From Lepidurus packardi (Eukaryota > Arthropoda > Branchiopoda > Notostraca > Triopsidae), in assembly GCA_023053545.1 (NCBI GenBank), contig JAKZAN010000005.1:7068001-7132000 (forward strand): a DNA stretch of 64,000 nucleotides, written 5' to 3'. Shown piece after piece: positions 28,802 to 64,000 of the stretch (its first letter is position 1; each line of letters starts with the position of its first letter). The notes under the pieces were generated by a model, which ran no database searches, was not told the origin of the DNA, and saw only the letters and a program-made list of their open reading frames with translations. Position numbers and translations under genes: made by a program.

Positions 28802-28994
28802 TCTTTAGAGTACTAATCTACGTCAATTGTGTGTTCAAAGTTAAAACAACAAAAAATCAACAGTCGTCGCGATTATGAGTAAAATAACCGTTTCCTACAA
28901 ATCGATTTCTAAGCTCAGAATCGATTAAATTGCGCAAACTTTATTATACATACATCGAATTTTAACACAAGCCAATTTTTGGAACGAACGAAAG
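28802..28994. promoter_or_regulatory. Divergent promoter region CNPY / NUDT8
   Basis: Only 193 bp separate the two divergent start codons. The stretch is AT-rich, with no recognisable TATA box. Confidence 0.6.
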
Positions 28995-33005: not shown

Positions 33006-33249
33006 TTTGGTACTTGGTTACGGATAAAATGATTTTAGTCATGGGAAAATCAAACGGGTTGCCTTAGTCTTGTGATATAGTAAAGCTGACAGAACATGTA
33101 ATGTGATTCTAACATGGTAAAAAGAAATTATACAAAGAAAAGACAAACATTCCATGAAAATGCCAAATATCAATACATTACAGATTGTTCTCCAACAAAA
33201 TAGTTTTTCCAGAACTTTTTCACTGAAGCGAACAGTAAACTTGTTCGTG

Positions 33250-35941
33250 TCAGGATTTATCCCGAGGAACATCCTTTTTCACCTGAGCGAGTACAAGTGT
33301 AATACTTATGCAATTCGAAATCTTGGGAATCTTACTTGGAATGCGACACAAGCCAACCATGATCGAGGAGAAGGCATTTCATCCACTACGTTCCACGCAT
33401 CGTGGAATACGTCGTAGCATTCCACACTATCGTGGTAGCGATCCCAACCCTCTTGACCACCCATAACATACACCTTCCCATCCACAATAGCCACGCCTAC
33501 GTATGAACGTACGCACGCTTTAAAAGCGAGTTTCAGCTTAAGTTAAGCACATTGTTACCTGGCCTATACCGTTTTTCGCACATAGGAGCCCGAAATTCCC
33601 ACGTGTTGGTACTCAGGTCATAACGTTCTACTTTATTTGTGTTCTCAGTGGACGCGTGCCATCCTCCTAAGAAATTAAACGAAACAAACAACAAATATAA
33701 ACCCTTCGAATACTTTTACTCAAATTACCGATAACTAAGATTTTGCCATGCAGAACACAAGCTGCTGCTCCACTTCGTTTGATAAGCATAGGAGCCAGTT
33801 CTGTCCACATATTAGCTCTGGGGTCGTATCGTTGGACAGTATCGATACCGTCACCTTCCTCCTTAATAGCACCACCTTAAACAATGCAGTTTAAGCTGAG
33901 TTCACTCAAAGTGAAAAAAATAGTTACCCAATACGTAAAGAAACCCCTCATAAGCCACTACAGCAGGACTAGTTATAGCAGTTTTCATTTTAGCCACTTG
34001 TTCCCATTGGTTTTTTCTCGGGTCATATTTTTCAACCGAATCAAGTCTGTGTGACCCTTGCCAGCCGCCTACTGCAAACAAACAACCATCTAAGACTGTC
34101 AATCCTTTAGGAACAAGAATTAAACTTGATTCAAATGAGAATTATTTTATTTTTACCTAATTCTGAGCGTGGTACCAGCATGGGAGGCATTTGCTGCCAG
34201 GCATCACAGCAAAGAGGATCGTACCTCCACAAAAAATTGGATACGTTGCCATCAGGAAACTCTCCACCCGCCAAGAAAAGCACGTTATGCCCCGACACAG
34301 CCAATCCATGTTTACTTAATATTATCAGCCTCATTAGAACCAATTTTTGTCGATAATTTTTTGGGGAAAATACCTTAAGGCGTAGGGTAAACAGGCTAGT
34401 ACTTGCCATTGCCTTTTGACTGGATTGTAACATTCTACGGATCGTAATACGACTTTATCATCTTCTCCACCTGCGGCCACAATAACCTAATAAAGTCAAG
34501 CGTTTAAGTTTTTTGTTCCATTTTGTTTTTTTCCGATTAGATCAGTTTAAAGATAAGAAGACGAACGAAATAAAATGCACACATAAAAGAAAAAAATAGC
34601 GAGATCTTTAAATAAATTCGTACCTGAAGTGTATGCGCATTATCTCGCAGCCTGGTACGAGCACAGTGCAATTCTGGGCGACGATCTGGGAGCAAATGGT
34701 ACAGGCGGGATTCTTCAAGCAATTCTAGGCATCGAGACGAAGCAGTGATACATTCTTCGCACGCTATATAATCGTGGAGAAAATATGGGCTAATCAGAGG
34801 CAATCGTACGTGTTCTAATACCTGGAGCAAAAGACCTGTAAGCTAGTTTAAGAAATAATCTAGGCAGCTACTTCATAGAACATTTCATTTCTCAAGGAAT
34901 CGTGCTTCAGCCAACGCAGAACTGCTAAAAAGACAGACTCTTCTTTGTCCGCGTTCAGGCCATCGTGGCGGATAATTTCAACTAGTCTTTGGGCACTTAA
35001 GGCTAGAAATTCTTCTTGTTCAGCAACAGCCATAAAGTTCCTAAGAAAGAAATTATTTTCAAAAGAACCGAAAGAATGGGACTGATGTATAATTTGCACT
35101 GTAAAGTGAAGGCTTCAGCTCTTTCTTGCAGCTGCGAGCAGCCGTGAGTCTCAGCGAAACATTGAATACCAACGCAATTGGAAGCGTCCATATGTTCTTC
35201 CAAAAACCTGCAACATGCATCCTTAACGCACAAAATCTAAAAAAGCAACTAAAGATCTACGTTTTAGATTCACGAACTTAGATTACTTGAAGGAGATTCG
35301 AAGCTGAAAGTAGGTTTTGTACATTGGCTTGAGTAATGACAACCTGGCTGGTATACGCATATTGCAGCAACAGGCAAATGCTACAAGCATCCACACCGTT
35401 TAATGTGACAACTTCTTGTTGGGATTCCGCTAATGTGCTTGTGAACATGGCTTTGAAATATGGACTTGCTGCCGCTAATACGGCTCGATGGCCAGGGTAT
35501 TCTTCATGGTCTACTTTTAAAATTACGTCACAGAATTGACGAGATAATCTGAGTTCATTCAACCCCTCCAATACCTAGTAAAGAAAGCGACTGAAACGTG
35601 CTTCCCAGAGAGCCCTTTGATTGGAAATTTACCGAGCTTGAATGAGACGACTTGCAGAACTTATACTCATCCGAGCTAGGGCCATCGAACTCAGCAACAG
35701 TACTAGAATCGCTATCGGATCCATTGTCTGCAGTTGTGTAGGTATGATCCACGTGAGGTGAGCTCATCAAAGCGTTTAATATCGCTGCTCGAGGCGAAGA
35801 TCCTACTGGCATCCGTGGGTTAAATCTCCGCAAAGGAACACCATTAGCTGGGGCATGATGGTCGCGAAGTACGTTCATCATGTGCTGCAAAGTTGGGTTG
35901 GCGTTTAGCATATAAGCTCCACGTGAACGATAAGCGCGCAT
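33250..35941 (-). CDS. BTB-BACK-Kelch protein (KLHL24/35-like)
   Basis: Twelve exons encode 672 residues: 35941-35633, 35574-35287, 35236-35100, 35040-34872, 34821-34624, 34486-34374, 34314-34157, 34104-33928, 33875-33729, 33666-33559, 33517-33336 and 33282-33250. KLHL proteins are substrate adaptors for Cullin-3 ubiquitin ligases. Seen: a Ser/Asp-rich N-terminal region (1-103); a BTB domain (RQFCDVILKVDHEEYPGHRA, YFKAMFTS, LLQYAYTSQV); a BACK domain (about 200-360: FLEEHMDASNCVGI, EFLALS, VLRWLKHD, HVRLPLISPYF); then about six Kelch repeats (LFAVGGW, VYVMGGQ, repeated VE-x-YD). The second half matches the KLHL24/35 layout best, but the exact orthologue is not certain. The last exon adds only 10 residues. 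Most of the gene is duplicated after the gap. Confidence 0.9.
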
Positions 35942-36429
35942 TCTTTTCTTAAAGGCCAAAGCTTATTAAATCTCTTACGATATCATATTACCCCCATTTT
36001 TCTTGTGGTCATTAGCCAGTTCAACGAACACAACACAAGCAACCTTTTAGGTTCCAAACAGGCGGCGCTCGTCTGAGGCCACGCCTATTGAAATTTAACA
36101 ACCAATGATGTGTGATGTGCGAAATGTTTTTTTTCTTTAATCTTTAATGGATTAAGTATAAAATTAACGGATATAAAACAAAGAACATGACCAGATAAAA
36201 AGAAATCATGAACAAAGATGTTTGGTGTTTTAATATATGAAACATGTGTAAATACAAGATTCTAAAAGCTGCTCGACAACTCGTTCCTTCTAAAAAGCTG
36301 AGAAAAAGGCTAACACCATATAGTATGACACATCAAGCATCAACATACAATCATTCCTATACAGCAAAAATCTAATCCATTCTTTTTTGTGTTCAGATTT
36401 TCGGATGAAGTAATATTTTTTCGTTTAAT
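35942..36429. other. Spacer between KLHL and MGRN1/RNF157
   Basis: Both genes are on the minus strand, so this 488-bp interval holds the MGRN1 3' end and the KLHL promoter. No other gene is visible. It occurs again at 56912-57399. Confidence 0.5.
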
Positions 36430-38777
36430 TCATGGCAAATTTCCATCCAGTTCGTTATCAGCTTTCGGCAAAAGCTTCTTGGTAGATCCTGCCGAACTGA
36501 AACTCTCTCCGGATGACCGTAAGGAAGCGTGACTCAATGGTTGCGGGGTGCCAGGAGTGGAATTAGTTGATGATCCAGTTTTGGGCGAGTGTAAACGTTC
36601 AGTGCCGCTTTTAACTCTTCTAAGCCCGCCATTTACCTTCTGGCTTTTATGACCCACAGATCGTCTTCCCAGGCTGCTTAATTGCGACTGGGAATGAACA
36701 GATTGGGTTTGGCTTAGCAGCAAGGCATTCACAGCCTCTACTTTAGCTTTCAACTTGCCCTGCCCATTCCCGTCTTCCAAGGCTGTGGAATCTGTTTCCA
36801 TCTCATACTCGGGGTCAAATTCTCGTTCGATCTTTCTTTCCAAGTTCAGAGTTTCTCCCACAGAAGCCAAAATTTCCCCGCATGTAGGACAGTCTTCCTC
36901 GGAATGCTCTAGGTGTAAATTATCTTTCCCAATTTCGCTTACAACCTCGACAGAGGAAGGTAGAGTTTCTTCTGGATTAAATTCCAGCTTCCTGGCAATA
37001 CTTTCTTCTAAGCCTGCTTCAATGCTTGAAGGTGACGCCAAGTCCTTGCTACGATGACGTCCTGATTGGCTTCGAGAACTGCTTCTTCGAGCTGCAAAGT
37101 TGGCCGGAATCTACACATCAATTTTGAACATAGATTCCACGAATATTTTTTTTCGAGTTTGTTACTTCTTCTGGCTGAATAATGCCATTAATATTGGACA
37201 TAGTTGACGGACTTCGCACAGGCTTCCGAACCCTTAAAAAAATTGTTTACGAGAAAAGAAATGACGAGCCATGCTGTACTTTTTACTGCCGTTCTCTTCA
37301 CTGTCTCTAGCAAACAAGTATGGCCCATTTAAAGCTTCCACTAACGCCACAGCTTCGTATCCAGCCGGAATTCCTTCTTGGTTAGCTGGGGCACTGTTTT
37401 CGGCACTTGGGTCCCTCCCTTCAACGATTTTCTGAACCGCGCGTATTTGTAAAAGCGCTCGGAAAGGAACGCGGCATATTGGACAGTTATTTGCCTACCG
37501 AAAACTCATTGCTTATGAAATTAAGTAGGTTAACTGCAAGAACCTGATAACGTAAAGAATCAGCGCAGGCACTGCACAAACACAAATGTCGACAAGGTAA
37601 AATCAGGGTATCTCGTACATCTGACATGCAAATAATGCACTCCGACGCATTATCATCCAAATCGTCGCCAATACTCTAAAAAAATGTGCGACTTGATTTC
37701 ACTTCTAAGGTAGGAAGCATTACCTTTATATTCTCGTTATGCTTATTTTCAATGCCATAAATTTCTTGCAGCAAATAGCACAGGCCATCCACAAATAACT
37801 TTTGTTTTAGAGGTTTAATAAAGTACGAGCCATCTGTGTGCTTTTCTACGACCGCATAAGTCGTGTGAGATTGGCGAGGGTCTGAAATAGAATATTTAAA
37901 ACAAAGCTGCTGAGTTAAAGTGTGTTTTCACCTTCTCCTTCTTCGGCGACGACTTGGATTGCCACTGGGATTAATTCAGTATCAAAACTGAAAGATAAAT
38001 CTTCTTCGTTAAATAACGCAGGGTAAAATACATGCGAAGGTTGGGTAAACTGTTGGTTAGCACCCATAGGATAAAAATAAGGTCCAGCTTTGCAGGTATC
38101 ATGCCTGGACCGGTACCTATAGCGAAAATACACGATATAACGGCATTACTAAATACGTATAGAAGTCTTACATGACACCTTGGCTTTGTACTTCTTCAAA
38201 GCAAAAGTAATGTATGGAAACTGAGCAAGGTATGTCACTATCGAGCATAAATTCGATATTGAAGCCCACGTTCTCAGGAGTACTTTGTAACGTGTCATCT
38301 TTCGATGGATCTAAAGGGGCTTTGACAAGGCGTAGAGATTCCTTCCGTATGTTAACTAATGCTTTTAAGGTTCGGGTTGGATCGTTGGCTTGCGGAGCAG
38401 CATAGGGAAACTGAAATATATATGACAGAGATGTTTAAGTTCAGGGTCTTTTCTTTAGCTTTCTAGAGGGAGGTTTTACCGGGGCGGGCCGGCCACCCAG
38501 AAGATTTATATCAGAATTATCGCCAAATAAGTAAGCTTCTGGAAGCTGCACATCGAAACGCTCTCCCCCCATGATAAAATGACTACCAAAGAAGCTTCCT
38601 GTACAAAATAAAATTTCACTACTAACGTAAATTAAATAAAATTAGAACAACCAAAATAATAAAAGAGTATGCTATAAATAAGGTATAACCATTTTTGGGA
38701 GGGTAGTGATAAGCGAAATTCGGGCGAACGATAATCTCCTCTTCATCGGCTTCCAGCCTGCTATTGAAAAGACCCAT
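36430..38777 (-). CDS. E3 ubiquitin ligase MGRN1/RNF157 (mahogunin family)
   Basis: Nine exons encode 627 residues: 38777-38690, 38598-38480, 38410-38172, 38116-37932, 37881-37724, 37675-37544, 37494-37280, 37232-37166 and 37110-36430. The family ubiquitinates TSG101 and melanocortin-pathway targets in the cytoplasm and endosomes. Seen: MG at the start (possible N-myristoylation), SFFGSHFIMGGERFD, LVNIRKESLRLV, SQ-type substrate-binding domain ending in IPVAIQVVAEEGE, LLQEIYGIENK, and a C3HC4 RING at about 276-314 (CIIC, PCRHLCLC, CPIC, with FRALLQIRAVQK). YEAVALVEALNGPY follows, then a long Ser/Glu-rich tail. Divergent from the caspase gene by 1.16 kb. An identical copy lies at 57400-59747. 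Confidence 0.93.
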
Positions 38778-39941
38778 TTTATTACAAAAAATAGTGTAAA
38801 ACTGCACAGCTATTATTCCTAATAGCACTGCCGATCCCCCGAATCCTTATTTTTATTTTTATATAGATTTATAAATACGAGTATCCGTCACCTAGTGGTG
38901 AACATAATTACTTTAACATAGATGCAGCGCGCTTTATCTTTTAAAATACATATATTTACAATGGCAAAATTCCACGCTTCAATAAACGATTACGGTTTTT
39001 CGTATGTAAAAAACTACATGTATCTAGTATATAAGAGGTATGTACGCCCACAGGAAAAATGTTGAATGTAAATCGCCAAGTTGTGATTCATGCCAAAATT
39101 GACCTTTAAATCTTGGACATATTGACCTGAAAACCACATTATATAGTTGAAAATCATGTGAAATTAATGTTGATGTAGTTTAGTTGAATTAGGAAAAAAG
39201 TAATTTTTGACCATCATGCAAATACCTACTAAGTAAGAGAGGTATATATGTCTACAGATGCAAAGGATTGAAAACTGTAAAAAAAAAAATTTATTGTGAA
39301 TCGTAAAATTGGACCTTTGGAGTGCTCACCTGCTCTCCAATATGTTTTATATGTACAAAGGTAATGTTTTCTTAGACGCGAGAGGTGTCTACGTCTACAG
39401 GTATACAATAGGAAAAAATAAAAAAATTTGAGTGTGAATCGCAAAATAGACGGCGCGTATAAGATTTAAAAATACACATACTAATGGATTTTTATAAAAA
39501 TTGAGATCCTTAGTACATTTTTTCTGATTTTGACAGCACCGTACAATCCCTCGACCCTTTTAGCGTACTTTTTTCTTCTTTTCTTTAACGCCTCTGCATT
39601 TGAAAGGAAGGGTTTAATCTATGATTTAAAAGGAAATAGTGAGTAACCTCTGTGTGGTGAGGAGGATAGGGATTGAGATAATTCGCCTATGTCGATAAGC
39701 GTTTTTTTTTTTTTAGTATTATCGTGGTTAAGTTATCAGTTAGTCAGAAAATGCACAACTCCATCCGTTCGTTTCGTACATATTGCCTGCGTGCGGTTTA
39801 CATAAACCTAACCAAGTTGTTTCTTTTTAGAGTCTTTTTAGCTCTGCCATTTTCAGTAAGACTTTAGCTTAATGAGCCCATTTCGACAGATCAGTAAATG
39901 TTCAATAATTATTTGTTGTCTGTTATTTGTAAGTTACAAGT
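38778..39941. promoter_or_regulatory. Divergent upstream region MGRN1 / caspase
   Basis: This 1164-bp AT-rich interval separates two divergent genes and should contain both promoters. It includes a degenerate direct repeat (listed separately) and a T tract near 39700-39713. No coding gene is evident. Confidence 0.5.
39237..39451. repeat. Degenerate direct repeat, two copies about 142 bp apart
   Basis: Copies at about 39237-39314 and 39379-39451 share GAGAGGT, GTCTACAG, an A-rich tract ending AAATTT, and TGTGAATCG(T/C)AAAAT. A weaker relative may lie near 39070. The function is unknown; they sit between divergent promoters. Confidence 0.5.
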
Positions 39942-41380
39942 ATGGACGTAATTGACGCCCAAGTGACCTCAGATACTTCCAGACAAGGCCATGCGGAAGT
40001 ATTAGAATTTAAAGAAAGCCCTCAACAAGACATCGTGGAGGTATCAAATGTTGCAAAAATAGACAAAAAAAACATTCGCAATGCGTCCACTCCTGTTATG
40101 TAAGCTACCGAAGGGCCATTGTTTTACAATTATTAATTCTGAGTTACTTGAACTAGCGGAAATACGAATGTGCTCGAGTATGATTTGAACTATTATATGC
40201 AACATAAAAAGCGGGGTCACGCTTATATTTTCCACCACGTCAAATATATGCCTCACCTATGTATCAAGAAGCGGAAAGATACCAACTCTGATTTGGAAGC
40301 AATGAAAAAAGTTCTGGACGTTCTCGGCTTCGATGTCAAGTGGTTTACGGATGCCAATCGAGAAAAGGTGTCTGAAAAGATCGTCAAGCGTAAGTCGTCA
40401 CATATAAGCCTTTCTTTATTCTACTACAACATACAATTACTATTTCAGTATCAAAAATGGACCACTCGGATTCTGATTGCGTACTAATTGCGGTGTTTAC
40501 ACACGGAGAACGAGACAAACTTTACGCGTGTGATGGCAAATACAAACCTACAGTATTATGGGAGCCTTTTCTACCAAGCAATTGCCCTTCCTTAGCCGGA
40601 AAACCAAAAATTATCATCATACAGGTTAGTCATCAATTGATATATTATCGGAAAAAAAAAAGATCTCAATTATACAAGGCTTGTCGAGGAGCACGAGTTG
40701 ACGCAGGAACATCTTTTAAAGTGGGAGCCGATAGCTCTGGAATGCAAACTGAAATAGACGCAGCTGCTACTCGTTCTGTCGAAAGCGGTATCTTCCCGTT
40801 TTCGATACCGTTTCATGCCGATTTAGTGATTGCAAGTAGCACACTGCCAGGTAGCTATTAACACATATGGATAATCACTTTATGTGTACCGTCTTTTGTG
40901 GTAAAATTAGGTTTCTATTCCTTTCGAAATGAACTTAAATCAGTTGACTACTGGTCGATAAGTTTATTTGGAATCTTTCCTTTCTTCGTTCCTCGTGACC
41001 TCTTCCAATGGCCAAGTATTGATATCGGCTACAAATTTTCTAGAGCTAACCTTTTTTTCTCGGCAGTCTGGATGCGAAATCGGAGAGTGGAGGCGGAAGC
41101 AAGCACTAGCACCGACGCAAGTAAGACGCAACGTCTTGGCTCCTGGTTTATTCAAACTTTGATCAAGGTACTCGAGGAATTTAGCGATACAGAAGACTTG
41201 CTTTCAATGTTAACTATAACAGCCTGTCAAGTTGCTACCAGGTTTGAAACTTATTCCGATGATGATTACTTAAACCTGAAAAAGCAGATCCCATGTATCC
41301 AATCTACGCTCACTCGCAAAGTATTCTTTCATCCGAACCCGCCAGCTCCTAAAGCAAACAAAACTTTTAAGCTTTTCTGA
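39942..41380 (+). CDS. Executioner caspase (caspase-3/7-like)
   Basis: Six exons encode 367 residues: 39942-40099, 40157-40389, 40449-40624, 40679-40850, 40911-40961 and 41067-41380. Executioner caspases are cysteine proteases that cleave after aspartate during apoptosis. A short prodomain (about 60-70 residues, no CARD or DED) precedes the p20 part, with the P1-binding Arg in KKRKDTNSD, catalytic His149 in FTHGERD and catalytic Cys191 in QACRG. A likely inter-subunit cleavage site is TEID216-A. The small subunit carries FYSFRN, GSWFIQTL and KQIPCIQSTLTRKVFF. Between FYSFRN and GSWFIQ the model has about 34 residues where caspase-3 has four; another splice choice could shorten this. An identical copy lies at 60912-62350. 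Confidence 0.92.
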
Positions 41381-42041
41381 TTGACGTCTATCATCTTAAC
41401 TACATTAGAAAAGTTCTATCCATGTCTTGCCTAGTCGTCATTTTGTCCCTAAACACTTTGCTTTCAAAGCAAAAATGTTATTCCTTAATACGTAACAGGT
41501 AATTGCGAAATTTCATCTGCTTTTCCTGCAAGTTGTTGAAAAATAAACTTGTTTATAACGTTTGACTTGAACATCTAACTGAAAGGGTGGGACGTATAAT
41601 CAAATTGAAACGGTTGGATATACATCCCACCCGTCTTTCTTCGTGAGACGTGTGCCCGCTTCTTACAATTGAAGCAAGTACCGTGGTACCGCCTTTCGTA
41701 TTCCCATGCGTTGTTTACTTGTCTGCAAATGTCCAGTCATCGAAAACAAAACTCTTGACAATTAGATCCATTCCCAGGAGTGCGCTATTCATGGATTTTT
41801 TTAGATGATTGTCCATAAGCCAGGTCTGAAAAGTTAGTTTGACAGAACAGAAAGCTAACAACAACTTTAGCTTTAGTGATGTTCTATACAAGGTGTCCAA
41901 AGCTACGTTCAAGCAGGTTGATATGGTAACACGACTGACAAACGGGTTGTTTGATCAATGGAAGCAGTTCGAGGCATGATGAAAGTTTTCTTTTGATCAG
42001 AGCCATATGTTTCCCATCGTTGAAGCAAGCAAGGCTGAATC
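41381..42041. other. Spacer between caspase and dynein genes
   Basis: This 661-bp interval holds the caspase 3' UTR and the promoter of the dynein gene, both on the plus strand. A palindrome-like ACCGTGGTACC lies at about 41680. No gene seen. Confidence 0.5.
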
Positions 42042-45000
42042 ATGGGTGAAAAACCTCCTGAAAACTTACTTAGCGACTCTCGTTTGGAATTTCTCGCAAC
42101 GGTTGTTCACAAATCCTTGAGGCTAAAAGCCGACCGATGGGCGAAACTAATTGCAGTTGACGAAGCACGCCGCACAATCCAGGTTCCTTTCCATTATTGT
42201 AACTGCCTGACTCACTTTTACATACTATATTACTCTCCCCTTTATTTCACAGGAATTTCTTGATCAAGAGGGTATCCCCTTGCTAATTATTAGTCAGACG
42301 GGACCGGGAGTACTTTCCGTTTCCAGTGCTCCAATCAGCCCAAGCAATCCTCTCACTGGACCGGGCGCCTCAAGCTCTCGCTTGAAATCTGTTTATTTTC
42401 TCAAGAAAAGGGCCGAAGCTGTATCACGGGTTGACCCCAGGTCTTCACTCTTGTTTGGCGATATCAGTCCTCAGCCGCTGGAGCAAGTCATGTCTTTCCT
42501 TGATGACGTAACTTTCCACTCTCTAATTACATAACCATTCTTGAACCACTGTCACAAAAATCTCTCGTTTTGAATTTTCTTCATTAATATACATTTGAAT
42601 TATGGGTAGGTTGTGGTTCCTACAATCGAGAGCTCCGTAACTGAGCAAGGTTACCCTTCTTTAATCGTCCAAGACCTACAACGAGAAGCTCGGGCTCTTC
42701 GAGGGGCTGTCGCCCGCGTTAGAGGCACTCTAGAGGGCCAAACTGTTCTTCCGGTGACTTGGCGAGGGCCACTTGAAAGGGAAGAACACCCACCTTTGAC
42801 CTCCCGATCAGCCGCTTTCTTGTCTCGAACCGACCTTGAGCAAGCGGTGCAAGGCTGGTCGCAGCAACTTGCACCAATCTTGGCAGACGATACGAAAGCT
42901 GAGTTTCTTCCTAGAAATTCGCCCCAAGAAGGCAATACGAAAAACCCCAACAGAACCAAGACTTACCTTTCGTTTGTAAACAGAAATCAGCTACTGGAAG
43001 AATAGAGCTCAAGATCTGGAAGGCATTTTTGGGCAAATGAAAAAAGAAAATGTACGGAAAATGGCCGCAAATCTGGAACAAGCGAAAAGCGCCTATGCCG
43101 ACACATTTCGCGGTCTTCTCAAGCAAGTTGTTACAGGTAAATTAGCTTCCCACCACAAAATAATAAAAACAGGAAATAAAAATATAAGAAATTAGCACTT
43201 TATCTTACCTTCTTTTTTAGCTTTGGCAGAATCTCAAGACATTGCGTTACACCTGAAACCCTTAGCTCGACCCCTAGAAACCATAGAATCGGCAGAAATG
43301 TCTGAACTCCATGCCCCTTTGAAAGCCATGTTCCATTCCATAGCCCTAGTTTGGGTTTCATGCACGCATTACCGAAAACCTGCACGATTTCTAAATCTTC
43401 TTCAACAACTAGCCAACTTGATTATCGATAAAGCACGGACGTTCCTGGATCCTCGTTCGTTATTCAGCGGAGAGCCCGAAGAGTCCATGGAAAGGATTGC
43501 CACCGTGTTAGAAACTACGACACTTTACAAATCATTGTACAAAGAACAAAGAAGTTTGATTGCTCCATTATTTAAGCGCTTTAATGGAAAAGTGGAAGCA
43601 CAAGAATGGCAGTTCTCAAATCGCCTTATTTTTGGACGTTTAGAGTTTTTCATAAATCGATTGCAAGTCATCAAGAACATGTTCGTGACCTTCCAAGAAT
43701 ATGGCCGTTTGAGTCGAGTCGAGCTTAGCACTGGAAGTGGGCGGAATCTCTCCTTGCAATTGACCAATATCTGTACACAGTTCGCTGAGCTAAGAGCGCC
43801 GTTTCTGTCGGGCATCTCTGGCGATTGTTTAGAGCCCGAAAATGAAGTTTTCAATTCCGCGGTCAAGGGATTTGAAAGAGGAATTAACGCTCTGGAGAAG
43901 AAATTGTGCGCTGTTTTGGGTCACGCTCTGGACGATTGCACCCATCCCCAAGCTGCAGGCAAGGTGGTAAGTTTACTGGGCACCTTTATGGAACATCCCG
44001 TTCTCCAAGCTCGTTTACAGCAAAGTTTCCCGCATTTGGCGGATATGGCATTGCAAGAAATTAAAGTTTGCCAAGATCTCTACCTAAAATTGGCCTCACA
44101 AACGTCGCGCTCTGACAGCACTCGTCCTCCTACCGCGGCCGCAGTCTTCAATTTACGCGAATTGGATAAACGAGCCTTGGGACCGGTAAAAGCCTTGCAG
44201 AACTTGAGCATTACATCCCAAACTCCCCAGGCTCATCAAGCGTTTGAGCGATATGAACAATTAACGGAGCAACTAAAGTGCTTGGAAGCGATCGTGGTGT
44301 GTAACTGGGCCAAGAACCTGGGACCCGTACTATCGTCAGTGACGCAGCCATTGCTGGTTCGGAATAGACATTTTGTCGCTGCTAATGTCCACTCTCACGT
44401 AAGCTAATTATATTAAGGTCCAATGCAAAGTAGATGACTATGATCTTTTGTTGGGGCGTTAGTTTGCCGTCGCGCTGTGGGAAGCACGGAGCCTTTTGCA
44501 GTTAGAAGTAAAAATCCCTCTCGAAGCTCAAGAAATGGCTGCGAAACACGGCCATTACCAAGCGTTGTTAAATTCGGTAGATTTGATCGTTACGAGCTAC
44601 CGTAACATCAAGAGCATGACTTCCTACCAATTAAACGCGCTACTACGCCCTCGTTTAGAAACACTGGAAGACCTCGTGGAACTCGCATTAGTTGAGCGTA
44701 CATGGGATACACCTGCCCTTACTTTGGACCCCTTTTTACAACAGCTGGAGCAAATAGTTCTAGCTGTGGAGTCCACTTTGAACGAGTTGTTCAGTTTGCT
44801 GGAATCGATCAAAAGTGTCACAAGCCTATGGTGCAAAGCGCCCTTGTTGGACCGCATGGATGTAGCTATAGAGAATCATGATCTGGTTTCGAAAAGATAC
44901 GGTGAAATTGCCGTTGGAGGCAAGAAAATCGAAAGTGTACTAGGAAAGATAAGGATTTTGCTAGAAATCGAGCATGAAAATGAAGCGTGGACGGCGTTCA

Positions 45001-51000: not shown

Positions 51001-54000
51001 CTCCGAAACTTTAATCACTGCCTTGGATTTGGTGCGATTGTGGGTCCACGAATTCCAGCGCGTGTACGGCGACCGGTTAGCGGATGATAAAGACTTGGAA
51101 TTATTTCGAAAAGTTTTATCCGACACCGTGAAGAAATGTTTTGACGTACGTACAGCCTTAAATTTTCCATACTATATAAAATAAACTTCATTGCCTTTTT
51201 ATTCTCACAGAGACAAGGTGGAAGCGAAGTGGAGTCTTGCTCGGGATTTTTTGTACGTCTTTTTAAATGAATTTCGTTGGGATTATCATAATTATTATCT
51301 TTCTTAGGATGTGGATGAAGTTGCTGTCTTGAAGCAGCCTTTAATCTTCTGCCATTTCTCAAGAGGATTAGGCGACTCCAAGTACTGTCCTGCTGACGAC
51401 TGGTCGGTTATTCAACCCGTTTTACACCAAGCATTGGCTTCCTACAATGATCTCAATCCGGTGATGGACCTCGTTCTCTTTGAAGACGCAATGGCACACG
51501 TGTGTCGCATTAATCGAATTTTAGAGTCTTCGAGGGGAAATGCACTCTTGATTGGCGTAGGTGGCAGTGGCAAGCAAAGTTTAGCTCGTTTAGCAGCGTC
51601 CATTTCTGGCTTTGATGTTTGCCAACTATCCACTCGCAAAGGATATGGGGTTTCTGATCTCAAAACAGATCTGTCAGTTTTATGCCTCAAAGCTGGAATG
51701 AAGAAATTACCCATTGTTTTGCTTATCACTGACGCACACTTAACTGACGAGCAAATTCTGGGACCTATTAACGACTTTCTAGCGGCGGGGGAGGTATCGG
51801 GCTTGTTCGCCGACGATGAAGTCGAAAACATTGTATCGGGCGTTCGTAACGAGGTAAAAGCCTTGGGATTGGTGGACTCGTGGGACACTTGCTGGCGTTT
51901 TTTCTTGGACCAAGTCCGTCGTCATTTGCATATCGTTCTATGCTGCTCGCCGGTTGGACCAACGCTTCGCCTTCGGTGTCAAAGGTTTCCAGCATTATTG
52001 GCATCCATGACGCTAGATTGGTTCTTACCATGGCCTCCCGAAGCCCTTTTGTCCGTTTCGTTGCGGTTCCTGCAAAATATGCCCATTTTAGCTGAGCAAT
52101 TCGCTGCGGGGGGCGTCTCAGTTCATGGCTCACGTCCATTCAAGTGTGAATGACGCCTCTCGTACTTTCCTTCAAGTCGAAGGTCGGTACAGTTATACCA
52201 CCCCCAAGTCCTTTTTAGAGCAATTGCAACTCTACCAACGGCTGCTTAACCAGCAGCATTCGGATTTACGAGGTAAAGTTGAAAGGCTCGAGAACGGATT
52301 GGAGAAACTGCGCAACGCTTCAATTCAGGGTGGATGAACTTAAAGAACGTCTAGCTGTCCAAGAAGTGGAGTTGAAGCAAAAGAAGGAAGATGCGGATCG
52401 ACTTATCCAAGTTGTACGAGTAGAGACGGAGAAAGTGACCCGTGAAAAGGGATTAGCGGACATCGAAGAGGAGAAAGTAGCCGATATCGCATTACAAGTA
52501 TCCCAGAAGCAAAAAGAATGCGAGGAAGATCTAATCAGAGCTGAACCTGCCTTGGCAGCGGCCCAGGAGGCTCTCAATACCTTGAACAAAGCCAATCTAA
52601 CCGAACTCAAGTCGTTTGGCACTCCTCCGTCAGCTGTGACCAACGTAGCAGCAGCTGTTTTAGTCTTATTAGCTCCGAACGGAAAAGTAGCTAAAGATCG
52701 ATCATGGCGGGCGGGGAAGGTCATGATGGCTCGCGTGGACCAGTTTTTGGATGCGCTAATTAATTACGATAAAGAGCATATTCATCCCGAAGTTATAAAA
52801 GCTATTCAACCATATATGGATAATCCAGAATTCGATCCGGAACTAGTTCGTTCCAAATCAGTAGCCGCAGCCGGTACTATTTTCAAGTTTTTCAAGAATT
52901 CTAGCATTCTTTTATTAATGCCTAGTTGTTCCATAGGGTTGTGCTCCTGGGTCATCAATATTATCAAGTTTTATGATGTTTATTGCGATGTAGAGCCCAA
53001 GAGAAGGGCTCTGGAGCAAGCCAATGCTGAATTGGCAGCTGCGCAGGATAAAGTCGCTGCAGTACGCGCCAAAGTGGCGGTACGTTTGACAACTAACTGT
53101 AAAATTCATATTATTAATTGATGTTATGAACGATCTAGAGTCTAGAAGCAACGCTGCAGCAGTTGACTGCCGATTTCCAGCAAGCTATGGAAGAGAAAAA
53201 GCAAAGTCAAGCACAGGCTGAAGCTACGCACCGAACATTGGAGCAAGCACATCGTCTATTGAGTGGTTTAGCCTCCGAGAAGGTTCGCTGGGCCCACGCT
53301 GTTGAAAAGTTAATCCTTTTTAGGACAGTAATTCTTATATTAATAATTTTTCTAATGACTTATAGTTTAAAGAAGAACGAAAATACGCTACCGGGGGATG
53401 TCTTACTGGCTACCGCATTCATTTCATATGCGGGCTGCTTTAGTAAGCAGTGCCGGCAAGATTTGATGCAGAAGACGTGGCTCCCTTTCCTAAGAGCTCA
53501 GGCTGGGGCTACTCCCATTTTACTGGCGCCTGATGCCGATCCTGTGGCATTGCTTGCCGACCCGGCTCAGGTAGCGGAATGGAATAACGAAGGATTACCG
53601 GCAGACCGTATGTCAGTAGAAAACGCAGCAATTCTCACTACTTGCGATCGCTGGCCTTTGATTATTGACCCGCAATTACAAGGCATTAAGTGGGTTAAGG
53701 GACATTACAGTTCCCAATTACAAGTCACCCAGTTGGGTCAGAAAGGGTTCCTGGAATCCCTGGAGCGATGTTTGCGCGAAGGCTTGCCTTTACTCATTGA
53801 AGACCTCGGAGAGGATATTGACAACGTTTTGGACCCGTTATTAGGGCGTCTGTTCATCAAGAAAGGAAGGTAACGTATTACTTGCATTTCACAAAAAATT
53901 AATTGAGGATGCAGTGGATCATTGCCATTAAAAGTCTCGCTGTCGTTATTACAGGGCAATTAAGATGAACGATAAGGAAATTGAGTACAATTCAGATTTC

Positions 54001-54915
54001 CGTCTCATTTTGCATACCAAGCTTCCAAATCCACATTATCGTCCCGAGTTACAAGCGCAAACTACGCTAATTAATTTTACAGTTACCCGAGCTGGTTTGG
54101 AAGAGCAGTTGTTGGCAGAAGTGGGTGCGCATGGAGAGACCGGACTTGGAACAGCGTAGAGTAGGTTGCGTTTACAGTCGAAGGAATTCGTGTTGATTTT
54201 TTCTTTTGGGGTTAGGCCGAGCTGATTAAGCAAGAGAACGATTTCAAAATTTCCTTGAAGAAACTGGAAGATGATTTATTGCTCCGTTTATCGAAAGCAG
54301 AAGGACAGTTTTTGGCAGACGCTTGTTTAGTGGATTCGTTAGAAAACACCAAGAGAACTTCTACAGATATTGCGGCGAGAGCTTTGGAGGCTTCCAATGC
54401 TGCCGTGCTTATCAACGAAATAAGAGAATTATATAGACCAGCAGCTTCTCGGGCTTCTTTGTTGTATTTCGTAATCAGTGAACTACATCAGCTCAATCCA
54501 ATCTATCAATTCTCGTTGAAGGTGTGAAAACCAAGACGAGATGTTTAAAAAAAAAAATCATGACATGTTTTTTCTTCTTTTTCTGATACAGGCATTTGTA
54601 GGTGTTTTCCAGAAAGCTATCGAAAGAGCTGCTCCCTGTCATGAAGTGTCGACTCGCGTAAACCACCTCATTGAGGAAATAACCTACTCCATTTTCTCGT
54701 ACACCTCCCGTGGTCTCTTTGAACAAGATAAGCTCGTTTTCACCGCCCAAATGGCTTTTCAGGTTTGAGCTTAACTTTTATAACCAGTTTATTATCTTCA
54801 GTTTTCTAATGTTAGATTTTATTGGCGGCTGGAGAAATTGACGCTATGGAGCTAGACTTTTTGTTACGTTTTTCCCGTAAGCTCCAGCGTTTCGAGTCAA
54901 GTCGACTTCTTATCT
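42042..54915 (+). CDS. Axonemal dynein heavy chain, outer-arm DNAH9/11/17 type (3' truncated by gap)
   Basis: Twenty exons give about 3,780 of roughly 4,450 residues: 42042-42182, 42253-42507, 42610-42902, 42991-43136, 43221-44398, 44463-45272, 45374-46039, 46143-48037, 48093-48228, 48306-49901, 49998-50171, 50264-51145, 51308-52873, 52937-53079, 53139-53308, 53366-53869, 53955-54160, 54216-54521, 54592-54762 and 54816 to the gap. It is a ciliary motor ATPase. Order: DHC N1 and N2 tail; AAA1 P-loop [13 protein letters not shown]2 [12 protein letters not shown]3 [12 protein letters not shown]4 GVGGSGKQS; stalk coiled coil and microtubule-binding domain; AAA5 ([23 protein letters not shown]); start of AAA6. 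Three single-base frameshifts (52108-52113, 52328-52330, 54123-54125) break the frame. The exon 3/4 junction is the least certain. Confidence 0.93.
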
Positions 54916-55015
54916 NNNNNNNNNNNNNNNNNNNNNNNNNNNNNNNNNNNNNNNNNNNNNNNNNNNNNNNNNNNNNNNNNNNNNNNNNNNNNNNNNNNNN
55001 NNNNNNNNNNNNNNN
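54916..55015. other. Assembly gap (100 N)
   Basis: Exactly 100 N, the conventional size for a gap of unknown length. It cuts the dynein gene on the left and exon 8 of the second KLHL copy on the right. Confidence 0.99.
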
Positions 55016-56911
55016 TCTGTGTGACCCTTGCCAGCCGCCTACTGCAAACAAACAACCATCTAAGACTGTCAATCCTTTAGGAACAAGAATTAAACTTGAT
55101 TCAAATGAGAATTATTTTATTTTTACCTAATTCTGAGCGTGGTACCAGCATGGGAGGCATTTGCTGCCAGGCATCACAGCAAAGAGGATCGTACCTCCAC
55201 AAAAAATTGGATACGTTGCCATCAGGAAACTCTCCACCCGCCAAGAAAAGCACGTTATGCCCCGACACAGCCAATCCATGTTTACTTAATATTATCAGCC
55301 TCATTAGAACCAATTTTTGTCGATAATTTTTTGGGGAAAATACCTTAAGGCGTAGGGTAAACAGGCTAGTACTTGCCATTGCCTTTTGACTGGATTGTAA
55401 CATTCTACGGATCGTAATACGACTTTATCATCTTCTCCACCTGCGGCCACAATAACCTAATAAAGTCAAGCGTTTAAGTTTTTTGTTCCATTTTGTTTTT
55501 TTCCGATTAGATCAGTTTAAAGATAAGAAGACGAACGAAATAAAATGCACACATAAAAGAAAAAAATAGCGAGATCTTTAAATAAATTCGTACCTGAAGT
55601 GTATGCGCATTATCTCGCAGCCTGGTACGAGCACAGTGCAATTCTGGGCGACGATCTGGGAGCAAATGGTACAGGCGGGATTCTTCAAGCAATTCTAGGC
55701 ATCGAGACGAAGCAGTGATACATTCTTCGCACGCTATATAATCGTGGAGAAAATATGGGCTAATCAGAGGCAATCGTACGTGTTCTAATACCTGGAGCAA
55801 AAGACCTGTAAGCTAGTTTAAGAAATAATCTAGGCAGCTACTTCATAGAACATTTCATTTCTCAAGGAATCGTGCTTCAGCCAACGCAGAACTGCTAAAA
55901 AGACAGACTCTTCTTTGTCCGCGTTCAGGCCATCGTGGCGGATAATTTCAACTAGTCTTTGGGCACTTAAGGCTAGAAATTCTTCTTGTTCAGCAACAGC
56001 CATAAAGTTCCTAAGAAAGAAATTATTTTCAAAAGAACCGAAAGAATGGGACTGATGTATAATTTGCACTGTAAAGTGAAGGCTTCAGCTCTTTCTTGCA
56101 GCTGCGAGCAGCCGTGAGTCTCAGCGAAACATTGAATACCAACGCAATTGGAAGCGTCCATATGTTCTTCCAAAAACCTGCAACATGCATCCTTAACGCA
56201 CAAAATCTAAAAAAGCAACTAAAGATCTACGTTTTAGATTCACGAACTTAGATTACTTGAAGGAGATTCGAAGCTGAAAGTAGGTTTTGTACATTGGCTT
56301 GAGTAATGACAACCTGGCTGGTATACGCATATTGCAGCAACAGGCAAATGCTACAAGCATCCACACCGTTTAATGTGACAACTTCTTGTTGGGATTCCGC
56401 TAATGTGCTTGTGAACATGGCTTTGAAATATGGACTTGCTGCCGCTAATACGGCTCGATGGCCAGGGTATTCTTCATGGTCTACTTTTAAAATTACGTCA
56501 CAGAATTGACGAGATAATCTGAGTTCATTCAACCCCTCCAATACCTAGTAAAGAAAGCGACTGAAACGTGCTTCCCAGAGAGCCCTTTGATTGGAAATTT
56601 ACCGAGCTTGAATGAGACGACTTGCAGAACTTATACTCATCCGAGCTAGGGCCATCGAACTCAGCAACAGTACTAGAATCGCTATCGGATCCATTGTCTG
56701 CAGTTGTGTAGGTATGATCCACGTGAGGTGAGCTCATCAAAGCGTTTAATATCGCTGCTCGAGGCGAAGATCCTACTGGCATCCGTGGGTTAAATCTCCG
56801 CAAAGGAACACCATTAGCTGGGGCATGATGGTCGCGAAGTACGTTCATCATGTGCTGCAAAGTTGGGTTGGCGTTTAGCATATAAGCTCCACGTGAACGA
56901 TAAGCGCGCAT
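55016..56911 (-). CDS. KLHL protein, second copy, 3' part missing
   Basis: This is the same as 34046-35941: exons 1-7 and the first 59 nt of exon 8 (56911-56603, 56544-56257, 56206-56070, 56010-55842, 55791-55594, 55456-55344, 55284-55127, 55074-55016). The remaining Kelch repeats are lost in the gap. Probably not a separate gene. Confidence 0.88.
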
Positions 56912-57399
56912 TCTTTTCTTAAAGGCCAAAGCTTATTAAATCTCTTACGATATCATATTACCCCCATTTTTCTTGTGGTCATTAGCCAGTTCAACGAACA
57001 CAACACAAGCAACCTTTTAGGTTCCAAACAGGCGGCGCTCGTCTGAGGCCACGCCTATTGAAATTTAACAACCAATGATGTGTGATGTGCGAAATGTTTT
57101 TTTTCTTTAATCTTTAATGGATTAAGTATAAAATTAACGGATATAAAACAAAGAACATGACCAGATAAAAAGAAATCATGAACAAAGATGTTTGGTGTTT
57201 TAATATATGAAACATGTGTAAATACAAGATTCTAAAAGCTGCTCGACAACTCGTTCCTTCTAAAAAGCTGAGAAAAAGGCTAACACCATATAGTATGACA
57301 CATCAAGCATCAACATACAATCATTCCTATACAGCAAAAATCTAATCCATTCTTTTTTGTGTTCAGATTTTCGGATGAAGTAATATTTTTTCGTTTAAT

Positions 57400-59747
57400 T
57401 CATGGCAAATTTCCATCCAGTTCGTTATCAGCTTTCGGCAAAAGCTTCTTGGTAGATCCTGCCGAACTGAAACTCTCTCCGGATGACCGTAAGGAAGCGT
57501 GACTCAATGGTTGCGGGGTGCCAGGAGTGGAATTAGTTGATGATCCAGTTTTGGGCGAGTGTAAACGTTCAGTGCCGCTTTTAACTCTTCTAAGCCCGCC
57601 ATTTACCTTCTGGCTTTTATGACCCACAGATCGTCTTCCCAGGCTGCTTAATTGCGACTGGGAATGAACAGATTGGGTTTGGCTTAGCAGCAAGGCATTC
57701 ACAGCCTCTACTTTAGCTTTCAACTTGCCCTGCCCATTCCCGTCTTCCAAGGCTGTGGAATCTGTTTCCATCTCATACTCGGGGTCAAATTCTCGTTCGA
57801 TCTTTCTTTCCAAGTTCAGAGTTTCTCCCACAGAAGCCAAAATTTCCCCGCATGTAGGACAGTCTTCCTCGGAATGCTCTAGGTGTAAATTATCTTTCCC
57901 AATTTCGCTTACAACCTCGACAGAGGAAGGTAGAGTTTCTTCTGGATTAAATTCCAGCTTCCTGGCAATACTTTCTTCTAAGCCTGCTTCAATGCTTGAA
58001 GGTGACGCCAAGTCCTTGCTACGATGACGTCCTGATTGGCTTCGAGAACTGCTTCTTCGAGCTGCAAAGTTGGCCGGAATCTACACATCAATTTTGAACA
58101 TAGATTCCACGAATATTTTTTTTCGAGTTTGTTACTTCTTCTGGCTGAATAATGCCATTAATATTGGACATAGTTGACGGACTTCGCACAGGCTTCCGAA
58201 CCCTTAAAAAAATTGTTTACGAGAAAAGAAATGACGAGCCATGCTGTACTTTTTACTGCCGTTCTCTTCACTGTCTCTAGCAAACAAGTATGGCCCATTT
58301 AAAGCTTCCACTAACGCCACAGCTTCGTATCCAGCCGGAATTCCTTCTTGGTTAGCTGGGGCACTGTTTTCGGCACTTGGGTCCCTCCCTTCAACGATTT
58401 TCTGAACCGCGCGTATTTGTAAAAGCGCTCGGAAAGGAACGCGGCATATTGGACAGTTATTTGCCTACCGAAAACTCATTGCTTATGAAATTAAGTAGGT
58501 TAACTGCAAGAACCTGATAACGTAAAGAATCAGCGCAGGCACTGCACAAACACAAATGTCGACAAGGTAAAATCAGGGTATCTCGTACATCTGACATGCA
58601 AATAATGCACTCCGACGCATTATCATCCAAATCGTCGCCAATACTCTAAAAAAATGTGCGACTTGATTTCACTTCTAAGGTAGGAAGCATTACCTTTATA
58701 TTCTCGTTATGCTTATTTTCAATGCCATAAATTTCTTGCAGCAAATAGCACAGGCCATCCACAAATAACTTTTGTTTTAGAGGTTTAATAAAGTACGAGC
58801 CATCTGTGTGCTTTTCTACGACCGCATAAGTCGTGTGAGATTGGCGAGGGTCTGAAATAGAATATTTAAAACAAAGCTGCTGAGTTAAAGTGTGTTTTCA
58901 CCTTCTCCTTCTTCGGCGACGACTTGGATTGCCACTGGGATTAATTCAGTATCAAAACTGAAAGATAAATCTTCTTCGTTAAATAACGCAGGGTAAAATA
59001 CATGCGAAGGTTGGGTAAACTGTTGGTTAGCACCCATAGGATAAAAATAAGGTCCAGCTTTGCAGGTATCATGCCTGGACCGGTACCTATAGCGAAAATA
59101 CACGATATAACGGCATTACTAAATACGTATAGAAGTCTTACATGACACCTTGGCTTTGTACTTCTTCAAAGCAAAAGTAATGTATGGAAACTGAGCAAGG
59201 TATGTCACTATCGAGCATAAATTCGATATTGAAGCCCACGTTCTCAGGAGTACTTTGTAACGTGTCATCTTTCGATGGATCTAAAGGGGCTTTGACAAGG
59301 CGTAGAGATTCCTTCCGTATGTTAACTAATGCTTTTAAGGTTCGGGTTGGATCGTTGGCTTGCGGAGCAGCATAGGGAAACTGAAATATATATGACAGAG
59401 ATGTTTAAGTTCAGGGTCTTTTCTTTAGCTTTCTAGAGGGAGGTTTTACCGGGGCGGGCCGGCCACCCAGAAGATTTATATCAGAATTATCGCCAAATAA
59501 GTAAGCTTCTGGAAGCTGCACATCGAAACGCTCTCCCCCCATGATAAAATGACTACCAAAGAAGCTTCCTGTACAAAATAAAATTTCACTACTAACGTAA
59601 ATTAAATAAAATTAGAACAACCAAAATAATAAAAGAGTATGCTATAAATAAGGTATAACCATTTTTGGGAGGGTAGTGATAAGCGAAATTCGGGCGAACG
59701 ATAATCTCCTCTTCATCGGCTTCCAGCCTGCTATTGAAAAGACCCAT
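57400..59747 (-). CDS. MGRN1/RNF157, second copy
   Basis: All nine exons of the gene at 36430-38777 recur here with identical translations (first exon 59747-59660, last exon 58080-57400). Because introns and flanks are also unchanged, this is most simply the same locus assembled twice. Confidence 0.88.
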
Positions 59748-60911
59748 TTTATTACAAAAAATAGTGTAAAACTGCACAGCTATTATTCCTAATAGCACTG
59801 CCGATCCCCCGAATCCTTATTTTTATTTTTATATAGATTTATAAATACGAGTATCCGTCACCTAGTGGTGAACATAATTACTTTAACATAGATGCAGCGC
59901 GCTTTATCTTTTAAAATACATATATTTACAATGGCAAAATTCCACGCTTCAATAAACGATTACGGTTTTTCGTATGTAAAAAACTACATGTATCTAGTAT
60001 ATAAGAGGTATGTACGCCCACAGGAAAAATGTTGAATGTAAATCGCCAAGTTGTGATTCATGCCAAAATTGACCTTTAAATCTTGGACATATTGACCTGA
60101 AAACCACATTATATAGTTGAAAATCATGTGAAATTAATGTTGATGTAGTTTAGTTGAATTAGGAAAAAAGTAATTTTTGACCATCATGCAAATACCTACT
60201 AAGTAAGAGAGGTATATATGTCTACAGATGCAAAGGATTGAAAACTGTAAAAAAAAAAATTTATTGTGAATCGTAAAATTGGACCTTTGGAGTGCTCACC
60301 TGCTCTCCAATATGTTTTATATGTACAAAGGTAATGTTTTCTTAGACGCGAGAGGTGTCTACGTCTACAGGTATACAATAGGAAAAAATAAAAAAATTTG
60401 AGTGTGAATCGCAAAATAGACGGCGCGTATAAGATTTAAAAATACACATACTAATGGATTTTTATAAAAATTGAGATCCTTAGTACATTTTTTCTGATTT
60501 TGACAGCACCGTACAATCCCTCGACCCTTTTAGCGTACTTTTTTCTTCTTTTCTTTAACGCCTCTGCATTTGAAAGGAAGGGTTTAATCTATGATTTAAA
60601 AGGAAATAGTGAGTAACCTCTGTGTGGTGAGGAGGATAGGGATTGAGATAATTCGCCTATGTCGATAAGCGTTTTTTTTTTTTTAGTATTATCGTGGTTA
60701 AGTTATCAGTTAGTCAGAAAATGCACAACTCCATCCGTTCGTTTCGTACATATTGCCTGCGTGCGGTTTACATAAACCTAACCAAGTTGTTTCTTTTTAG
60801 AGTCTTTTTAGCTCTGCCATTTTCAGTAAGACTTTAGCTTAATGAGCCCATTTCGACAGATCAGTAAATGTTCAATAATTATTTGTTGTCTGTTATTTGT
60901 AAGTTACAAGT

Positions 60912-62350
60912 ATGGACGTAATTGACGCCCAAGTGACCTCAGATACTTCCAGACAAGGCCATGCGGAAGTATTAGAATTTAAAGAAAGCCCTCAACAAGA
61001 CATCGTGGAGGTATCAAATGTTGCAAAAATAGACAAAAAAAACATTCGCAATGCGTCCACTCCTGTTATGTAAGCTACCGAAGGGCCATTGTTTTACAAT
61101 TATTAATTCTGAGTTACTTGAACTAGCGGAAATACGAATGTGCTCGAGTATGATTTGAACTATTATATGCAACATAAAAAGCGGGGTCACGCTTATATTT
61201 TCCACCACGTCAAATATATGCCTCACCTATGTATCAAGAAGCGGAAAGATACCAACTCTGATTTGGAAGCAATGAAAAAAGTTCTGGACGTTCTCGGCTT
61301 CGATGTCAAGTGGTTTACGGATGCCAATCGAGAAAAGGTGTCTGAAAAGATCGTCAAGCGTAAGTCGTCACATATAAGCCTTTCTTTATTCTACTACAAC
61401 ATACAATTACTATTTCAGTATCAAAAATGGACCACTCGGATTCTGATTGCGTACTAATTGCGGTGTTTACACACGGAGAACGAGACAAACTTTACGCGTG
61501 TGATGGCAAATACAAACCTACAGTATTATGGGAGCCTTTTCTACCAAGCAATTGCCCTTCCTTAGCCGGAAAACCAAAAATTATCATCATACAGGTTAGT
61601 CATCAATTGATATATTATCGGAAAAAAAAAAGATCTCAATTATACAAGGCTTGTCGAGGAGCACGAGTTGACGCAGGAACATCTTTTAAAGTGGGAGCCG
61701 ATAGCTCTGGAATGCAAACTGAAATAGACGCAGCTGCTACTCGTTCTGTCGAAAGCGGTATCTTCCCGTTTTCGATACCGTTTCATGCCGATTTAGTGAT
61801 TGCAAGTAGCACACTGCCAGGTAGCTATTAACACATATGGATAATCACTTTATGTGTACCGTCTTTTGTGGTAAAATTAGGTTTCTATTCCTTTCGAAAT
61901 GAACTTAAATCAGTTGACTACTGGTCGATAAGTTTATTTGGAATCTTTCCTTTCTTCGTTCCTCGTGACCTCTTCCAATGGCCAAGTATTGATATCGGCT
62001 ACAAATTTTCTAGAGCTAACCTTTTTTTCTCGGCAGTCTGGATGCGAAATCGGAGAGTGGAGGCGGAAGCAAGCACTAGCACCGACGCAAGTAAGACGCA
62101 ACGTCTTGGCTCCTGGTTTATTCAAACTTTGATCAAGGTACTCGAGGAATTTAGCGATACAGAAGACTTGCTTTCAATGTTAACTATAACAGCCTGTCAA
62201 GTTGCTACCAGGTTTGAAACTTATTCCGATGATGATTACTTAAACCTGAAAAAGCAGATCCCATGTATCCAATCTACGCTCACTCGCAAAGTATTCTTTC
62301 ATCCGAACCCGCCAGCTCCTAAAGCAAACAAAACTTTTAAGCTTTTCTGA
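60912..62350 (+). CDS. Executioner caspase, second copy
   Basis: Exons 60912-61069, 61127-61359, 61419-61594, 61649-61820, 61881-61931 and 62037-62350 repeat the caspase at 39942-41380 with the same active-site residues. Counting both copies would double the caspase number wrongly if the block is an assembly duplicate. Confidence 0.88.
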
Positions 62351-63011
62351 TTGACGTCTATCATCTTAACTACATTAGAAAAGTTCTATCCATGTCTTGC
62401 CTAGTCGTCATTTTGTCCCTAAACACTTTGCTTTCAAAGCAAAAATGTTATTCCTTAATACGTAACAGGTAATTGCGAAATTTCATCTGCTTTTCCTGCA
62501 AGTTGTTGAAAAATAAACTTGTTTATAACGTTTGACTTGAACATCTAACTGAAAGGGTGGGACGTATAATCAAATTGAAACGGTTGGATATACATCCCAC
62601 CCGTCTTTCTTCGTGAGACGTGTGCCCGCTTCTTACAATTGAAGCAAGTACCGTGGTACCGCCTTTCGTATTCCCATGCGTTGTTTACTTGTCTGCAAAT
62701 GTCCAGTCATCGAAAACAAAACTCTTGACAATTAGATCCATTCCCAGGAGTGCGCTATTCATGGATTTTTTTAGATGATTGTCCATAAGCCAGGTCTGAA
62801 AAGTTAGTTTGACAGAACAGAAAGCTAACAACAACTTTAGCTTTAGTGATGTTCTATACAAGGTGTCCAAAGCTACGTTCAAGCAGGTTGATATGGTAAC
62901 ACGACTGACAAACGGGTTGTTTGATCAATGGAAGCAGTTCGAGGCATGATGAAAGTTTTCTTTTGATCAGAGCCATATGTTTCCCATCGTTGAAGCAAGC
63001 AAGGCTGAATC

Positions 63012-64000
63012 ATGGGTGAAAAACCTCCTGAAAACTTACTTAGCGACTCTCGTTTGGAATTTCTCGCAACGGTTGTTCACAAATCCTTGAGGCTAAAAGC
63101 CGACCGATGGGCGAAACTAATTGCAGTTGACGAAGCACGCCGCACAATCCAGGTTCCTTTCCATTATTGTAACTGCCTGACTCACTTTTACATACTATAT
63201 TACTCTCCCCTTTATTTCACAGGAATTTCTTGATCAAGAGGGTATCCCCTTGCTAATTATTAGTCAGACGGGACCGGGAGTACTTTCCGTTTCCAGTGCT
63301 CCAATCAGCCCAAGCAATCCTCTCACTGGACCGGGCGCCTCAAGCTCTCGCTTGAAATCTGTTTATTTTCTCAAGAAAAGGGCCGAAGCTGTATCACGGG
63401 TTGACCCCAGGTCTTCACTCTTGTTTGGCGATATCAGTCCTCAGCCGCTGGAGCAAGTCATGTCTTTCCTTGATGACGTAACTTTCCACTCTCTAATTAC
63501 ATAACCATTCTTGAACCACTGTCACAAAAATCTCTCGTTTTGAATTTTCTTCATTAATATACATTTGAATTATGGGTAGGTTGTGGTTCCTACAATCGAG
63601 AGCTCCGTAACTGAGCAAGGTTACCCTTCTTTAATCGTCCAAGACCTACAACGAGAAGCTCGGGCTCTTCGAGGGGCTGTCGCCCGCGTTAGAGGCACTC
63701 TAGAGGGCCAAACTGTTCTTCCGGTGACTTGGCGAGGGCCACTTGAAAGGGAAGAACACCCACCTTTGACCTCCCGATCAGCCGCTTTCTTGTCTCGAAC
63801 CGACCTTGAGCAAGCGGTGCAAGGCTGGTCGCAGCAACTTGCACCAATCTTGGCAGACGATACGAAAGCTGAGTTTCTTCCTAGAAATTCGCCCCAAGAA
63901 GGCAATACGAAAAACCCCAACAGAACCAAGACTTACCTTTCGTTTGTAAACAGAAATCAGCTACTGGAAGAATAGAGCTCAAGATCTGGAAGGCATTTTT
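63012..64000 (+). CDS. Axonemal dynein heavy chain, second copy of the 5' end
   Basis: Exons 63012-63152, 63223-63477, 63580-63872 and the start of exon 4 (63961 to the window end) repeat 42042-43030. If the right-hand contig continues, the missing 3' end of the dynein gene may lie beyond the window. Confidence 0.88.

Follow-up and report, generated by a model that had tools for sequence, protein, structure and literature searches.

We analyzed a 64,000-base stretch of Lepidurus packardi DNA, referred to here as the window, which corresponds to positions 7068001-7132000 of the scaffold with the working label C4. Coordinates are given in window numbering, continued past 64000 where the downstream sequence is described. 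The only run of N in the window, exactly 100 bases long, separates a left contig from a right contig. The gap is preceded in the left contig by KLHL and RING frames on the minus strand and by a caspase and an axonemal dynein heavy chain on the plus strand. The features recognized there are as follows.

33309-33542, minus strand: kelch frame of KLHL
33905-34141, minus strand: KLHL frame with a kelch repeat (Kelch_1, E 1.2e-16)
35281-35574, minus strand: BTB/POZ domain of KLHL, inside the repeated block (BTB, E 2.9e-28)
37490-37675, minus strand: RING frame (zf-C3HC4_3, E 1.7e-11) of a putative MGRN1, the name given in the original prediction
40394-41380, plus strand: caspase domain pieces in two adjacent frames (Peptidase_C14, E 8.4e-17 and 5e-9)
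43196-54915, plus strand: axonemal dynein heavy chain, copy A, cut by the contig end and continued in the right contig to about 78513

Three plus-strand genes lie farther to the left. A match to the diacylglycerol-kinase catalytic domain at 31562-31852 belongs to a gene that runs on to about 33000 and adjoins KLHL, and which we take, by eye, to be sphingosine-kinase-like. The frames at about 26060-27502 presumably represent an adrenodoxin-reductase-like gene and those at 28929-29714 a Nudix-hydrolase-like gene, both judged by eye. A tRNA scan of the window found no tRNA genes.

The dynein gene crosses from one contig into the other. Its domains follow in the order DHC_N1, DHC_N2, AAA_6, AAA_5, AAA_7, AAA_8, MT and AAA_9 from 43196 onward, and in the right contig these are followed by Dynein_heavy (D6), AAA_lid_11 and Dynein_C, whose profile is matched up to its last position, at C4:7146513 (78513 in window numbering). 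The expectation that the dynein continues past 64000 was thus borne out. The original prediction had also put the end of the left contig in dynein AAA6, which needs correction: the contig ends after the AAA_9 match and before the D6 (AAA6) match, in a frame that lies between the two. The last frame of the left contig, read in its counterpart in the right contig, matches dynein axonemal heavy chain 9 at residues 3762-3810, ahead of the D6 match.

A repeated block on both sides of the gap

The two contigs share a long block, present once at the tail of the left contig (copy A) and once at the head of the right contig (copy B).

34046-54915, plus strand: copy A (20,870 bp), which forms the tail of the left contig and has its final base directly before the gap
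54916-55015, no strand: gap of 100 N separating the two contigs
55016-64000 in the window and on to 75881 (C4:7143881), plus strand: copy B, head of the right contig, 20,866 bp

A base-by-base comparison within the window found 34046-43030 and 55016-64000 identical at 8,985 of 8,985 positions, and copy B starts immediately behind the gap, both as originally predicted. Starting at the contig's first base, copy B has no leftward extension. We followed the block beyond the window in 144 kb of C4, comprising the window extended by 20 kb on its upstream and 60 kb on its downstream side. The earlier estimate of an overlap of at least 9 kb holds as a lower bound, and the full extent is 20.9 kb. Likewise, the earlier report that no difference was seen between the copies is correct inside the window, but four single-base differences follow downstream of it. 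A and B match exactly over their first 18,067 bp; the remainder differs by four one-base insertions in A and by no substitutions, for an overall identity of 99.98%. The match extends from the tip of one contig to the tip of the other where the two face each other across a gap of fixed length. A megablast comparison of the 144 kb against itself revealed, at its settings, no repeats besides A and B. A separate repeat search of the window found one direct family, the A/B pair, and no inverted repeat pair.

The four insertions are listed by their positions in copy A.

52113, plus strand: extra G (G6 in A, G5 in B), shifting the dynein frame; its place within the run is arbitrary
52330, plus strand: extra G (G3 in A, G2 in B), shifting the dynein frame
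54125, plus strand: extra G (G3 in A, G2 in B), shifting the dynein frame
54873, plus strand: extra T (T5 in A, T4 in B), 43 bases short of the contig end, shifting the dynein frame

All four are in homopolymers, and their distances to the end of copy A are 2,803, 2,586, 791 and 43 bases. Under random placement, all four differences would fall in the final 2,803 of 20,870 bp with a probability of 3.3e-4, a value computed after seeing the data. We compared the reading frames of the two copies with dynein axonemal heavy chain 9. Copy B contains a 603-residue frame at 72278-74086 that is broken in A by the first two insertions, and the B translation aligns through both of these sites with dynein axonemal heavy chain 9 (PDB 8j07, E 5.1e-218). 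B is also in frame with this protein at the third site (E 1.4e-28) and at the fourth (E 4.7e-9), and copy A departs from the frame at each of the four. The consensus quality is accordingly lower in A, with four frame-shifting homopolymer insertions in its last 2.8 kb, while B stays in frame. Judged from the assembled bases, the insertions are most simply read as long-read errors that went uncorrected where the contig tip was thinly covered. We do not favor the view that copy A is a pseudogene: all four changes are confined to the 2.8 kb next to the gap, and the preceding 18 kb, with its introns, has none.

We determined how often the block and its flanks occur in the genome (108,557,554 bases in 344 contigs). 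Four probes from the block (34046-35000, 37500-41500, 43000-47500 and 52000-54915, which sum to 12,373 of its 20,870 bp) each matched the genome at full length twice, both times on C4. The left flank (31500-34045) had one place. The right flank (3,119 bp after 75881) had one full place and a 63-bp piece at 79% identity on contig C112, inside another dynein gene. The flank probes and the block probes, the latter spanning 12,373 of the block's 20,870 bp, uncovered neither a third copy nor another junction. A sequenced junction between the units is absent, and the N gap is the sole boundary between the copies.

The probe at 37500-41500 additionally matched two 198-bp pieces, at 74-75% identity, elsewhere on C4 near 12.94 Mb. 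These pieces, at about 12,941,304-12,948,207, resemble 40433-40627 in the caspase region and perhaps mark related caspase genes. Such weakly related sequence, on C4 and on C112, is ordinary.

Origin of the repeat

False duplications with this arrangement have been described in other assemblies. In the account of Rhie et al. (2021, PMC8081667), homotype false duplications often lie at contig boundaries, are about a read length long and arise from dovetailing branch ends of the assembly graph; after scaffolding, they appear as tandem copies with a gap between them and differing consensus quality. The text of Ko et al. (2022, PMC9516828) that treats this point states that an assembly gap most often separates false duplications, a pattern the authors did not observe for true duplications. 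Read depth, discordant reads and k-mer copy number are further criteria in this literature. The locus described here lies at a contig boundary, its copies stand in tandem with a scaffold gap between them, and the match reaches both edges of the gap exactly. It shares with the duplications described in these two papers the dovetail of facing contig ends, whose 20,870/20,866 bp may be about the length of a long read, and tandem copies across a gap. It also shares with them the lack of haplotype variants and the lower consensus quality of one copy. Compared by assembly sequence alone, the locus showed no difference from homotype false duplications as these sources present them. Our literature search returned no paper on negative gaps.

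A similar geometry has been named duplicated overlapping contigs (DOCs) by Kelley and Salzberg (2010, PMC2864568). As DOCs are characterized there, adjacent scaffolded contigs align at their facing ends and carry unshared sequence on opposite sides, as do the two contigs here. In that description, however, DOCs are attributed to divergence between haplotypes and assessed with mate pairs, whereas the copies at this locus are free of substitutions.

The identity of the copies, their tip-to-tip geometry, the single-copy flanks, the pattern of differences and the continuity of the dynein together argue that the 21-kb repeat is very probably a homotype false duplication, that is, an assembly artefact rather than a real gene duplication. 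The original prediction of two overlapping contigs scaffolded in series is supported by the dovetail, by the probed flanks being single copy, by the clustering of differences at a contig tip and by genes that are completed across the copies. We infer that the block is single copy in the genome.

We considered whether the two contigs might instead derive from the two parental haplotypes, both retained in the primary scaffold. Such a heterotype false duplication would have a geometry identical to that of a homotype one, and the findings reported in PMC9516828 make heterotype duplication the main source of false duplications in several assemblies. A haplotype split normally brings substitutions, however, and none is present in 20.9 kb that includes introns and intergenic parts. 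This explanation would thus require two haplotypes that are identical here, and the four differences that do exist resemble read errors grouped at one contig tip. Judged from the assembly, there are no haplotype-specific variants between the copies, only the four homopolymer insertions near the tip. We regard a heterotype origin as very unlikely.

A real tandem duplication would be a still less probable source of the repeat. It would have to be extremely recent and free of substitutions, and would involve a KLHL-RING-caspase-dynein unit of more than 20.9 kb whose junction was lost in the gap. In its favor, the copies are in the same orientation on one scaffold, and contigs broken inside two near-identical units would dovetail in the same way. 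Nevertheless, the parts of the two units that are not seen, among them the ends of the dynein and of KLHL, would have to fall wholly within the gap, and the probed flanks are single copy in the genome. The lack of any substitution also speaks against a real duplication, as does the finding that A and B differ only by homopolymer insertions, which cluster at the tip of one contig and disrupt the dynein. Chance or membership in a repeat family can be rejected: an exact match of 18 kb makes a chance origin impossible, each probe has two full copies, and the flanks are single copy where probed.

Under the homotype explanation, one stretch of chromosome would have been assembled as two contigs whose facing ends dovetail by 20.9 kb, an overlap of approximately the length of one long read. 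The contigs may have been left unmerged because of an unmerged read overlap or a branch in the assembly graph. The scaffolder would then have ordered and oriented them correctly and separated them by a fixed gap of 100 N, doubling their common end. The predicted true order is a single series of KLHL (minus strand), RING/MGRN1-like (minus), caspase (plus) and axonemal dynein (plus), with the dynein finished in the right contig. The KLHL copy in B is cut: the first base of the right contig corresponds to 34046, which lies within the Kelch_1 match, and the remainder of the gene is missing from that side. When A and B are taken as one, the gene truncations at the gap vanish.

A homotype false duplication at this locus would hold no new biology, and it matters for users of the assembly. 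Gene counts would be inflated here by second copies of the RING/MGRN1-like and caspase genes and by partial second models of KLHL and the dynein. The dynein model drawn from the left contig would be frame-shifted and truncated, and the scaffold would be about 21 kb too long at this locus. Before caspases or dyneins are said to have expanded in this species, the overlap should be counted as one copy.

Probable ciliate sequence in the same assembly

We searched the genome for Dynein_C and obtained 27 matches, 15 on small contigs (C112 and higher numbers) and 12 on C1, C2, C4 and C6. The small-contig matches contain 39 in-frame stops (26 TAA, 13 TAG and no TGA), distributed over 14 of the 15. The 12 matches on the large contigs contain five (four TAG, one TAA and no TGA), and introns may account for these, the genes being spliced. 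On C112, a 609-residue frame for a dynein C-terminus is open under translation table 6, which reads TAA and TAG as glutamine; under tables 1 and 4 it is not open. The frame includes six TAA/TAG codons and terminates at TGA, and its alignment with axonemal dyneins reaches the ends of those proteins (E 2.8e-191).

Some of the small contigs carry CCCCAA arrays at their ends. C325 (51,320 bases) starts with one. The first matches listed for a six-unit CCCCAA pattern are on C73 and C74: C73 has a forward array at 6-95 and a reverse array at 142450-142656, and C74 has a forward array at 2-229 and reverse arrays at 95068-95271 and from 139532 on. Over the whole genome, the pattern had 3,769 forward and 4,168 reverse matches. 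The reversed-letter control gave 3,822 forward and 4,264 reverse matches; it describes the same array and is hence uninformative as a control.

Glutamine-coding TAA and TAG codons together with CCCCAA telomeres are a mark of ciliate macronuclear chromosomes. The reading of TAA and TAG as glutamine and the CCCCAA arrays suggest that a ciliate is present in the assembly, which on these sequence features probably holds ciliate macronuclear chromosomes beside those of the animal. The source may be a symbiont, a food organism or a contaminant. Probable ciliate contigs include C73, C74, C112, C266, C325 and others up to C328. The inner reverse array of C74, at about 95068-95271, possibly reflects two joined ciliate chromosomes or an internal telomere site.
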